IMG/VR virus record: IMGVR_UViG_3300046028_001848
Span: 1-22,776 of that record
Reading direction: 5' to 3' (one strand)
DNA from: a virus
DNA: 22,776 bases
In this document: positions 5,220 through 7,890 of the stretch, one piece after another
How the letters are laid out: each line of letters opens with the position of its first letter
Numbering within the stretch: position 1 is the first letter of the stretch
Made by a program: the position numbers and the translations under genes
Notes under the pieces: generated by a model
Databases searched by the model: none
What the model was told of the DNA's origin: nothing
The model's input: only the letters and a program-made list of their open reading frames with translations

Positions 5220-5599
5220 TTAAACTTACACTGCCATGGCCGCCTAGCACCAATCACTCACACCACTACGGAGGCAAACGCAAGTTTTTAAGCAAGCCTA
5301 CGCAGAAATTTAGGGAGGATGTCCAGGACATAGTTGTAGATGCAAAGGCTAAAATAGATGGAAGGTTGGCCGTGTTCTATGCTTTCTATCCACCAGATCG
5401 CAGGCGTAGGGACATAGCCAACTACGAAAAGCAAGCTACAGACGCATTACAAGCTGCCGGCGTATTCTTAGACGATGAGCAGATAGATTTTATATGGCTA
5501 GTGCGTAGGCACATTGTTAAGGGCGGCATGTGCAAGGCTGTTATTGTGCCATACACAGAAGTACACCAAATGCTAGAAAAATACGAGGATTACATTTAA
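5216..5599 (+). CDS. rusA: RusA-like Holliday junction resolvase
   Basis: A 127-residue protein close to the usual RusA length of about 120. It begins LTLPWPPSTNHS, the typical RusA N-terminal strand, and holds the active-site region RRRDIANYEKQATDALQAA (62-80) and GVFLDDEQID (82-91). RusA dimers cut four-way junctions made in recombination and replication. D66, N69, K72, D76 and D86/D87 are present. The usual RDxDN motif reads RDIAN, so one acidic position (residue 68) is Ala. It overlaps the nuclease-like gene by 4 nt and the Q-like gene by one base, so all three are coupled. Confidence 0.9.
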   Translation: MIKLTLPWPPSTNHSHHYGGKRKFLSKPTQKFREDVQDIVVDAKAKIDGRLAVFYAFYPPDRRRRDIANYEKQATDALQAAGVFLDDEQIDFIWLVRRHIVKGGMCKAVIVPYTEVHQMLEKYEDYI

Positions 5600-5925
5600 T
5601 GGAACTAGGTAGAGTAATATATTATTTAGATATGTGGCGTGAGTACATGAAGTCAGACAACAATAAGCTAGGCTATAAGTCTAGGTCTTCTGGCTTTCAC
5701 ACAGGCGGTGTACACTCGTTTGATGATATAGCTGACGAGGTTGATAGCCATAGCGTAAGAGTTGTGGATAAGGTGATAGACGATCTGCCGGCATTTCAGC
5801 GCAATGCTATATATGTGATCTATCTGGGCCAAAAGACAATGATGGACATGAAGGTATTAGATCGCTATTACGACAATGCAATGGCCATGTTGCAGCAAAA
5901 ACTGACAGAAAAGAACCTATATTAA
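5599..5925 (+). CDS. Putative late antiterminator Q-like protein (108 aa)
   Basis: The architecture resembles small phage Q antiterminators of the 21/933W type. An N-terminal LDMWREYMKSDNNKLGY is followed by a polar segment with GF, and then a sigma-region-4-like helix set (VDKVIDDLPAFQRNAIYVIYLG, then LDRYYDNAMAMLQQKL). The middle of the usual helix-turn-helix seems shortened. The strongest support is position: last early gene, followed within 8 bp by a near-consensus promoter and a 95-nt terminated transcript, then the late genes. The ATG overlaps the rusA stop (TAATG); an upstream in-frame start would lie inside rusA. Similarity is faint, so a small sigma-like regulator is an alternative. 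Confidence 0.5.
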   Translation: MELGRVIYYLDMWREYMKSDNNKLGYKSRSSGFHTGGVHSFDDIADEVDSHSVRVVDKVIDDLPAFQRNAIYVIYLGQKTMMDMKVLDRYYDNAMAMLQQKLTEKNLY

Positions 5926-5932
5926 ATACTAC

Positions 5933-5961
5933 TTGACAAACGAGCCATTTTGTGGTAATAT
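5933..5961 (+). promoter_or_regulatory. Near-consensus late promoter (pR'-like)
   Basis: TTGACA at 5933-5938, a 17-nt spacer and TAATAT at 5956-5961, 8 bp after the stop of the Q-like gene. The -35 is perfect and the spacer optimal; the -10 differs from TATAAT at two positions. Predicted start is near 5968. It should be constitutively used by host sigma70 polymerase, as is lambda pR'. Confidence 0.85.
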
Positions 5962-5967
5962 ACGACC

Positions 5968-6062
5968 TGCTGGTATAGTTGCGTCTATATGATTCATATA
6001 CCAAGCTTTAACCTAATCTCCGTTGGGTTCGGACTCTCCTAAAAGCTGAGTCCATTTTTTTT
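5968..6062 (+). ncRNA. Short structured transcript between late promoter and terminator
   Basis: About 95 nt with three hairpins. TGGTATA (5971-5977) pairs with TATACCA (5997-6003). AACCTAA (6010-6016) pairs with TTGGGTT (6023-6029) through a 6-nt loop. The terminator hairpin is at 6031-6053. No open frame or tRNA fold fits. The layout matches lambda 6S RNA made from pR' and stopped at tR' until Q acts. Length and fold are from reading; no known family recognised. Confidence 0.65.
6031..6062 (+). terminator. Intrinsic terminator tR'-like
   Basis: GGACTC (6031-6036) pairs with GAGTCC (6048-6053) around an 11-nt loop, followed by one A and eight T (6055-6062). The stem is short but GC-rich and the U-run long. 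It separates the late promoter from the whole structural operon, so readthrough would control late gene expression. Confidence 0.85.
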
Positions 6063-6128
6063 GGGTGAAATTAATATACATACTACTGGTATTAGTTGAA
6101 AGTAGCCCATCTATTAGAGGACACCTAT

Positions 6129-6287
6129 ATGCCATGGACAGAAAAACAGCACAGACTATTTCAAGCTGCCGCTCATAATCCGTCTATAGCAAAGCGTGTA
6201 GGGATCCCACAAGGGAAAGCAAGGATGATGGCTTCAGAGGGCGTAAAGAAAGACCCTAAGAAGTTAGCGGCTGCATTAATGAAGTAA
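6129..6287 (+). CDS. Small conserved phage protein upstream of terminase (52 aa)
   Basis: A basic 52-residue protein starting MPWTEKQHRLFQAAAHNP and continuing KRVGIPQGKARMMASEGV. Similar short basic proteins with this motif occur, from memory, next to terminase genes in many phages; their role is not established. I chose ATG 6129 because GAGGA lies 7-8 nt upstream, whereas the longer TTG frame from 6096 has no ribosome site. It is the first gene after the late terminator. Confidence 0.7.
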   Translation: MPWTEKQHRLFQAAAHNPSIAKRVGIPQGKARMMASEGVKKDPKKLAAALMK

Positions 6288-6328: not shown

Positions 6329-6577
6329 ATGACAGAAGAAAAAAGACAAGCTGGCAGACCAATAGGTAAACGACACCAGGAAGATGTGCGTAGCAAGATA
6401 CAAGCTACTCAAATAATCAATAGATTATATAGCGCATTTCAAGGTGAAGTAGAGCTAACAGCGATACAAGTTAATATAGCAAAGACTTTATTAGACAAAG
6501 TCTTACCTGACTTAAAAGCGATTGAACAGACGACTCAGCTTACTGCTGATGTTGAAGTCTACGCATGGCAAGAATAA
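6329..6577 (+). CDS. Putative terminase small subunit
   Basis: An 82-residue helical protein with N-terminal QAGRPIGKRHQ, then KIQATQIINRLYSAFQGE and LTAIQVNIAKTLLDKVLPDLKAIEQ. The AGRP start and TxxQxxxAKxLLDKVLPDL helix are typical of short phage proteins annotated as terminase small subunits, and it overlaps the large-subunit gene by 13 nt. Small subunits recognise the packaging site and assemble as rings. It is shorter than classic ones (about 140-180 aa), so it may be a minimal version. The ribosome site is weak. Confidence 0.65.
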   Translation: MTEEKRQAGRPIGKRHQEDVRSKIQATQIINRLYSAFQGEVELTAIQVNIAKTLLDKVLPDLKAIEQTTQLTADVEVYAWQE

Positions 6578-7890
6578 TACCTTACAAGCCTAGGGAAGCG
6601 TTCCAACCATTACACACTAGCAACAAGCGATGGAAGGTTGTAGTAGCCCACCGTAGGGCAGGTAAGACAGTAGCGTGTGTCAATCAGCTCATTAAAGAAG
6701 CTGTAATGAGCAAGCGTAATGATTTTCGTGCAGCATACATAGCGCCATTCTATAAACAGGCTAAGTCTGTAGCCTGGGACTATTTTAAATACTTTACTAG
6801 GGTAATTGATGGCATCGTCATTAATGAGTCAGAGCTACGCATTGATTTTAAGAACGGTGCAAGGATTCAGCTTTTTGGTGCTGATAATGCTGACAGCCTT
6901 CGTGGTCTTTACCTTGATAGTATCGTCTGTGATGAGTATGGTGATTGGAGGGCTAATGTATTCCAGTACATCATCCGTCCTGCATTGGCTGATAGACAAG
7001 GTAAAGCGGTCATAATCGGAACGCCTAAGGGCAGAAACGCCTTTTGGCAGACATACGATAGAGCTATACACTCCGATGATTGGCTGGCTTTAAAAATAAC
7101 AGTTAGTGATTCAGGCATACTACCGCAATCAGAGATTGACTCATTAAAGCAAGAGTTATCTGAAGACGCATGGCGTCAAGAGATGGAATGTGACTTTGAT
7201 GCTGCATTGCCTGGTGCTATATGGGGTCGTGAGTTATACCAAGCAGAGCAAGATGGACGAGTAACTGGCGTAGAGTATGATGAGTTTGCCCCTGTGTTTA
7301 CTGCATGGGACTTAGGCTACTCTGATGACACGGCTGTGTTCTTCTATCAAGTAGTGCAAGGTGAGGTTCACTTCATTGACTACTACGCTGCTAGTGGCAA
7401 ATCTATTGACCATTACGCTGCACACATACTAAGCAAGCCTTATAAATACAAGACGCACTTCCTACCACACGATGCTAGAGCTAAGACCTTGGCCTCTGGT
7501 GGTAAATCAGTCATTGAGATGTTGGCCGAACACTTGAGCATAACTAAGATGGCAATCACACCTAGCCTATCACTACATGATGGCATACAGGCGGTAAGAC
7601 AAATGATGCCTAAAGCATGGTTTGATAAAGAGCGTTGTTATGATGGCCTAGAGGCTCTCAAACAGTATCAGCGTGAGTGGGATGATGACAAGAAAATGTT
7701 TAGGGATAAACCTAGACACGATTGGACATCTCATGCGGCAGATGCTATGCGTTATGCTGCTATTAACTGGCGTGAAGAACATAAGCCTGTGGTAGAAGAC
7801 AAACCAATTAGAGGCATCATGGTCGGTCAGACCGATGTCACACTCAATGAACTATGGGCCACACAGCCTAAACAACCTAAAAGGATTTAA
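6565..7890 (+). CDS. terL: Terminase large subunit (ATPase plus nuclease)
   Basis: A 441-residue packaging motor that pumps DNA into the prohead and cuts concatemers. The ATPase domain shows Walker A AHRRAGKT (28-35), Walker B with catalytic Glu SIVCDEYG (119-126) and coupling motif IGTPKGRN (151-158). The RNase H-like nuclease domain shows D249 in TAWDLGYSDDTA, HDAR (302-305) and the final acid in HAADAMRYA (D393). All key residues are present and the length is normal for this class. The start lies inside the small-subunit gene, so the two are coupled. Portal follows after two small genes. Confidence 0.95.
   Translation: MARIIPYKPREAFQPLHTSNKRWKVVVAHRRAGKTVACVNQLIKEAVMSKRNDFRAAYIAPFYKQAKSVAWDYFKYFTRVIDGIVINESELRIDFKNGARIQLFGADNADSLRGLYLDSIVCDEYGDWRANVFQYIIRPALADRQGKAVIIGTPKGRNAFWQTYDRAIHSDDWLALKITVSDSGILPQSEIDSLKQELSEDAWRQEMECDFDAALPGAIWGRELYQAEQDGRVTGVEYDEFAPVFTAWDLGYSDDTAVFFYQVVQGEVHFIDYYAASGKSIDHYAAHILSKPYKYKTHFLPHDARAKTLASGGKSVIEMLAEHLSITKMAITPSLSLHDGIQAVRQMMPKAWFDKERCYDGLEALKQYQREWDDDKKMFRDKPRHDWTSHAADAMRYAAINWREEHKPVVEDKPIRGIMVGQTDVTLNELWATQPKQPKRI

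Follow-up and report, generated by a model that had tools for sequence, protein, structure and literature searches.

The window analysed here covers positions 1 to 22,776 of IMG/VR record IMGVR_UViG_3300046028_001848, a stretch of viral DNA of 22.8 kb whose positions are used throughout. Between its rusA gene and its terminase operon lies a cassette in which a gene for a Q-like protein of 108 amino acids (aa) is followed by a promoter, a leader of 95 nucleotides (nt) and an intrinsic terminator, with the late genes beyond (Table 1). An earlier, sequence-only reading had likened this order to the Q, pR' and tR' late switch of phage lambda, and the likeness is borne out, as gene, promoter, leader, terminator and late operon could all be located. 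The late switch is real, and phages from aquatic samples carry it widely. With a probability of about 0.68, we take the protein to be a late antiterminator of Q21 descent that loads at a pause close to the promoter and is probably guided by the leader rather than by a Q binding element (QBE) in the promoter spacer.

The late promoter has the perfect -35 element and 17-bp spacing ascribed to it (TTGACA, N17, TAATAT), and transcription is predicted to start at ~5968. The leader, folded from 5968 to 6063, reaches -27.6 kcal/mol, compared with -15.1 +/- 2.7 for shuffled sequences (z -4.6; 0/200 as good), in keeping with the three-hairpin RNA and U8 terminator read from the sequence. A stock scan missed the terminator because its loop limit was 8, shorter than the loop found here. 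Under a looser scan rule, the late promoter is the sole strong promoter on the + strand of the window, the terminator is one of two T6 terminators, and the two form the only promoter-plus-terminator cassette, none being found in 60 Markov shuffles. The genes 5' of the Q-like gene encode NinB, HNH and RusA and terminase lies 3', and the gene order therefore matches that of lambdoid phages; the same layout is seen again in distant relatives. The first late gene has a listed TTG start and an in-frame ATG further on, at ~6129, and a small open reading frame (ORF) and the gene for the terminase large subunit likewise lie downstream of the cassette.

Table 1. Features of the late cassette and the genes that follow it, in window positions.
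Feature	Position	Strand	Remarks
Q-like late antiterminator gene (inferred)	5599..5925	+	108 aa; ATG overlaps the rusA stop; TAA stop
-35 element	5933..5938	+	TTGACA; 7 bp past the stop codon of the Q-like gene
Promoter spacer	5939..5952	+	Varies even where the proteins are identical; QBE-like element looked for, none found
Extended -10	5953..5961	+	TGG TAATAT; hexamer TAATAT 5956-5961, TG-preceded; 17-bp -35/-10 spacing
Leader RNA	5968-6062	+	95 nt, three hairpins; predicted start, computed fold
Hairpin 1	5969..6006	+	Apical hairpin GYC-N5-GRU is conserved; relatives show compensatory changes
Consensus pause signal	5973..5983	+	G-10 ... Y-1 G+1; predicted RNA 3' end C5982, ~+15
-10-like hexamer within the transcript	5974..5979	+	TATAGT; ~+7..+12; in many, not all, leader types
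Hairpin 2	6010..6029	+	Loop UCUCCG
Intrinsic terminator, tR'-like	6031..6062	+	6-bp stem GGACTC 6031-6036/GAGTCC 6048-6053; 11-nt loop; T8 6055-6062
First late gene, small protein	6096..6287	+	Weak similarity to virion/head families PHROG 16759 and 25121
Terminase large subunit	6565..7890	+	Late operon runs on past it
721-aa protein	8376		Portal by position only; more late genes beyond

Relation of the protein to the Q21 family

Window searches of Pfam and PHROGs gave no name for the 108-aa protein, and sequence searches of the PDB returned nothing credible. Its relatives score 15-16 bits against the hidden Markov model (HMM) of PF06530, named the Q21 family (PMC7171158), where the cut-off is 26 (E 5.4e-4 in the Venkman genome, and 0.011; both sub-threshold); a match to Sigma70_r4_2 among them is likewise sub-threshold (0.012). 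Profile-profile comparison (hhalign) of the family with PF06530 yields P values of 1.2e-4 and 1.7e-4 and a score of 28.8, the best of 150 column shuffles reaching 19.7. Taken by halves, essentially all of this signal resides in the N-terminal half (27.9) and none in the C-terminal half (10.4). Judged by these profiles, the N-terminal helix and the ring-loop region are homologous to PF06530. The HMM of lambda Q (PF03589) did not match the window protein, the positive control HK97 Q scoring 9e-58, and Q82 (PF06323) was absent among matches up to E 1.

The AlphaFold2 (AF2) model of the window protein has helices at 3-19, 47-62, 65-76 and 84-104 and a disordered loop at ~25-44, and that of a PF06530 control has helices at 4-16, 47-63, 65-76, 81-87 and 92-113 and a disordered loop at 21-42. 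The helix plan is equal in both, save that helix 81-87 of the control, the first of the helix-turn-helix (HTH), is gone from the window protein together with its turn. In 21Q, the HTH reads the QBE, and contact with polymerase falls to the first helix and the loop, which build a ring in the RNA exit channel (PMC6606751). As modelled, the HTH of the window protein is shortened and incomplete relative to the control, which agrees with the suspicion that it lacked a complete Q HTH. The comparison with Q(21) and sigma region 4 that the sequence-only reading had proposed also gives substance to the faint Q or sigma-4-like features noticed there: the N-terminal half is related to PF06530, and the best Foldseek matches of the model are sigma region 4 domains (E 0.3). 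That reading had further spoken of a divergent or new class of antiterminator. A divergent antiterminator is well supported, but a new class is too strong a term for a family that seems to descend from Q21.

Distribution of the family and its pairing with the leader

Several hundred IMG/VR contigs encode members of the Q-like family, as do three named phage records. The IMG/VR searches returned 33, 184, 366 and 144 matching stretches, in sets that overlap, and one scan of 84,980 bacterial and archaeal genomes returned no relative of the protein. By tblastn, it matches Venkman gp37 ("antitermination-like") at 36% and MW202481 ("antitermination protein Q") at 32%, and a Venkman-type query reaches a further relative, EBPR podovirus 1 gp41, encoded directly 5' of TerS/TerL. 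A made-up bait with a grafted HTH carries no evidential weight, its sole purpose having been to bring up annotated Q proteins. At 250 aa, ydfT of E. coli Qin, which bears the annotation putative antitermination protein Q, looked lambda-type and was not used. In six relatives (L066, L187, L343, L348, L351 and L357) the DNA 3' of the Q-like gene looks like a new ORF, methyltransferase-like by eye, where the leader would otherwise stand.

A scan of 2.9 million viral contigs with leader DNA only gave 39 and 67 loci, of which those with at least 420 nt upstream entered a pairing test. The Q-like gene lies upstream of the leader in 36/36 and 63/63 testable contigs (99/99), many of which the protein searches had turned up before; the result is therefore a test of pairing and not an independent sample. 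The distance from gene to leader is usually 32-59 nt and extends up to 766 nt. Terminase follows in all 18 A-type contigs that extend far enough and, within 6 kb, in 11/40 E-type contigs, being elsewhere farther away or possibly off the fragment. At L022, L025 and several leader-search loci, extra sequence separates the Q-like gene from the promoter and leader, yet the cassette is kept; the distance from the Q stop codon to the leader is 160-766 nt in four.

Promoter spacer and leader RNA

The comparison of promoters drew on 91 distinct combinations of promoter and leader, less one that was doubtful. L004 and L008 encode identical proteins; their spacers share 2/14 positions in an ungapped comparison, and the first 20 bases of their leaders are identical. 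Across 50 pairs with proteins 97-100% identical, picked for low spacer identity, the spacers agree at 0.38 versus 0.43 when shuffled and the leaders (40 nt) at 87%, and over all 210 pairs the mean identities of spacer and leader are 0.68 and 0.90. Because spacers can fall to the shuffle level between proteins this similar, a spacer QBE seems not to be required by the Q-like family, although the extended -10 or the transcribed DNA may hold a site, and this variation fits with the shortened HTH. The PF06530 set provides no control for spacer conservation, since a promoter just 3' of those genes could not be assigned with confidence. The extended -10 and a GG-N8-CG stretch are conserved as DNA. 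Overall, conservation appears, from these comparisons, to have moved from the promoter DNA to the first stretch of the transcript.

What does this stretch contain? The pause signal G-10 Y-1 G+1 of E. coli (PMC7876045) is present in 55/55 distinct leaders, which are not independent because leader types share ancestry, and places the predicted RNA 3' end at +11 to +18, mostly at +14/+15. It occurs on average in 9.1 and at most in 18 leaders in 500 mononucleotide shuffles, and in 6, 3, 0 and 1 leaders in later leader windows. Hairpin 1 folds around it; in 17 leaders drawn from groups A, B and C1, 98.5% of its cells are paired. Compensatory changes affect 5/8 of its pairs, with 14 double-change cells against 3.2 in shuffles, and the signal is lost when the structure is slid, a control that favours hairpin 1 because the structure counted came from folds of the same sequences. 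RNAalifold recovers the same hairpin. Other leader groups have just a short hairpin at this position, of 4 bp in some types. An inner hairpin considered early (UAUAG-UUGCGU-CUAUA) was dropped, not being kept in leaders L009 and L070.

Further along, most leader types share the motif UCUCCGU, or CUCC, which is either looped or unpaired. The L077 leader, located just 3' of its Q-like gene, has CACCUCCUUUAG, similar to the anti-Shine-Dalgarno end of 16S rRNA. An intrinsic terminator is found by a strict rule in 47/55 leaders, and 7/8 of those that fail are F-type (L347-L361), with long terminator loops. Rfam had no match to the late leader up to E 1.

A second promoter-leader-terminator unit (1021-1126, + strand; promoter TTGGAC..TGCTAGACT) precedes the early/replication operon and is kept on 23 viral contigs (L462-L476, L371, L372, L380, L385, L388, L389, L392 and L394). 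The hairpin loop GGACTAG (1040-1046) can pair 7/7 with CTAGTCC (1095-1101), which forms the loop of a terminator hairpin of 17 bp. These kissing loops exist in the covarying versions GGACAAG/CTTGTCC and GGTCAAG/CTTGACC; among relatives, two loop pairs change on both sides, 77/77 loop-loop cells pair and sliding destroys the pattern. Rfam had no match to this RNA, which is possibly a second, RNA-based point of early attenuation or antitermination.

Proposed loading model and comparison with known systems

How would a Q-like protein with a shortened HTH find its polymerase? From the anatomy, the family relation, the conservation, the RNA covariation and the gene-leader pairing described above, we infer a course of pausing, loading, ring formation and antitermination. 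Host RNA polymerase would start at ~5968 at the extended -10 promoter and pause after ~15 nt at the consensus pause site; by default, it would terminate at 6055-6062 and release the 95-nt RNA. The 108-aa protein, as a shortened relative of Q21, would load on the paused polymerase, where its N-terminal helix and flexible loop probably form an exit-channel ring as in 21Q, so that transcription would continue past the terminator to the terminase and virion genes. Given the truncated HTH and the freely varying spacer, it is probably the transcribed leader that directs loading, through the pause sequence and the first RNA hairpin.

Several observations, beyond the shared ancestry of the leaders, weigh against this model. 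The PF06530 HMM does not match the window protein, and among the Foldseek matches listed 21Q is top for the PF06530 control and not seen for the window model; the protein is therefore filed as Q21-related and not as a member of PF06530. The phage 21 sigma-dependent pause has a -10-like element at +2..+7, a position deduced from PMC6606751, and by eye, counting from the predicted start, no such hexamer stands at +2..+7 in the representative leaders of each type. Furthermore, the elemental-pause motif was not found near E. coli sigma70 pauses (PMC7876045), and the pause signal is therefore no proof of a sigma-dependent pause. L069 and L070 combine identical proteins with two leader types that differ in hairpin 1 sequence and have in common the pause motif, a hairpin and CAACTCATCTCCGTGAGT; recognition therefore cannot rest on the hairpin 1 sequence alone. 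Finally, Venkman-type relatives (L002/L194 Venkman, L094, L300 and L109) keep the Q-like gene with no leader adjacent, and a leader search across the Venkman genome recognised none. In Venkman the late genes run along the other strand, and no control signal was recognised for them.

Other explanations may be offered for the same features. An ordinary Q21-type switch, in which the C-terminal helices still read DNA, either at the extended -10 or in the base pairs transcribed first, and the RNA fold is incidental, would suit both the Q21-related N-terminal half and the conservation of the extended -10 and GG-N8-CG as DNA. It is nevertheless rather unlikely, given that spacer and upstream DNA can differ completely between identical proteins, that the first HTH helix is absent from the model and that the compensatory changes of hairpin 1 point to RNA. 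The leader might instead be mainly a trans-acting small RNA, its UCUCCGU/CUCC resembling an anti-Shine-Dalgarno sequence, with the protein merely controlling readthrough. The motif's presence in loops or single strands of most leader types speaks for such a role, but it is absent from the EBPR podovirus leader, its structural setting differs between leader types, and the 5' hairpin and pause are kept more widely, all of which makes a trans-acting RNA distinctly improbable.

Slightly harder still to credit is that the protein regulates at the -35 element in the manner of sigma-4 or of an anti-sigma factor, with terminator readthrough arising from another cause: the sigma region 4 domains that are the best Foldseek matches are indeed complexed with anti-sigma factors, but the strict coupling of the gene to a leader and terminator suits antitermination better than control of initiation. 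That the leader antiterminates alone, as HK022 put does, is barely plausible. Although it offers a structured, covarying 5' RNA directly past the promoter, gene and leader occur together in 99/99 testable contigs, the leader ends in its own terminator, and some leader types retain just a 4-bp hairpin.

The late antiterminator proposed here, loaded at a pause, most closely recalls phage 21 Q with 21PR' and 21tR', which it resembles in gene position, in promoter-terminator layout, in an N-terminal helix with an LxxWxxW/Y motif followed by a flexible loop and two helices that appear sigma-R4-like, and in a promoter-proximal pause predicted here at a similar distance. Unlike Q21, it lies below the Pfam cut-off, lacks the first HTH helix, has spacer DNA that is not conserved and in which no QBE was found, shows no -10-like hexamer at +2..+7 and is accompanied by a structured and conserved leader RNA. 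The lambda Q (PF03589)/pR'/6S system works in a similar way, through a Q gene, a late promoter, a short terminated leader and a late operon, but there is no sequence match and, as the sequence-only reading had stated, the leader is shorter (95 nt here, 194 nt in lambda). AlpA of Pseudomonas and GafZ of the Caulobacter gene transfer agent are antiterminators that act at promoters and take polymerase past terminators (PMC9371919, PMC11150451). Reportedly, each uses a binding element in its promoter, placed for GafZ between -35 and -10, and none was found here.

Antitermination directed by a structured nascent RNA, as inferred for this cassette, is otherwise known from HK022 put and lambda N/nut, where nut needs N plus boxA/boxB. 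HK022 put needs no protein (PMC9378689). Direct reading of the window leader (5968-6062) showed no boxA-like CGCUCUU and, unlike in put and N/nut, the constant partner here is the Q-like protein. For the Q-type antiterminators described so far, targeting is ascribed to a DNA site in the promoter. More tentatively, and with the odds somewhat against it, this branch of the Q type may have given up reading promoter DNA and load by way of a pause and a structured nascent leader, merging a Q-like protein with a nut- or put-like RNA site. A natural family whose DNA reader is shortened and whose spacer varies freely, present in common aquatic phages, would make it possible to ask directly which minimal signal suffices for Q loading, and whether antitermination can pass from the DNA-directed (Q) to the RNA-directed (N, put) form and back.
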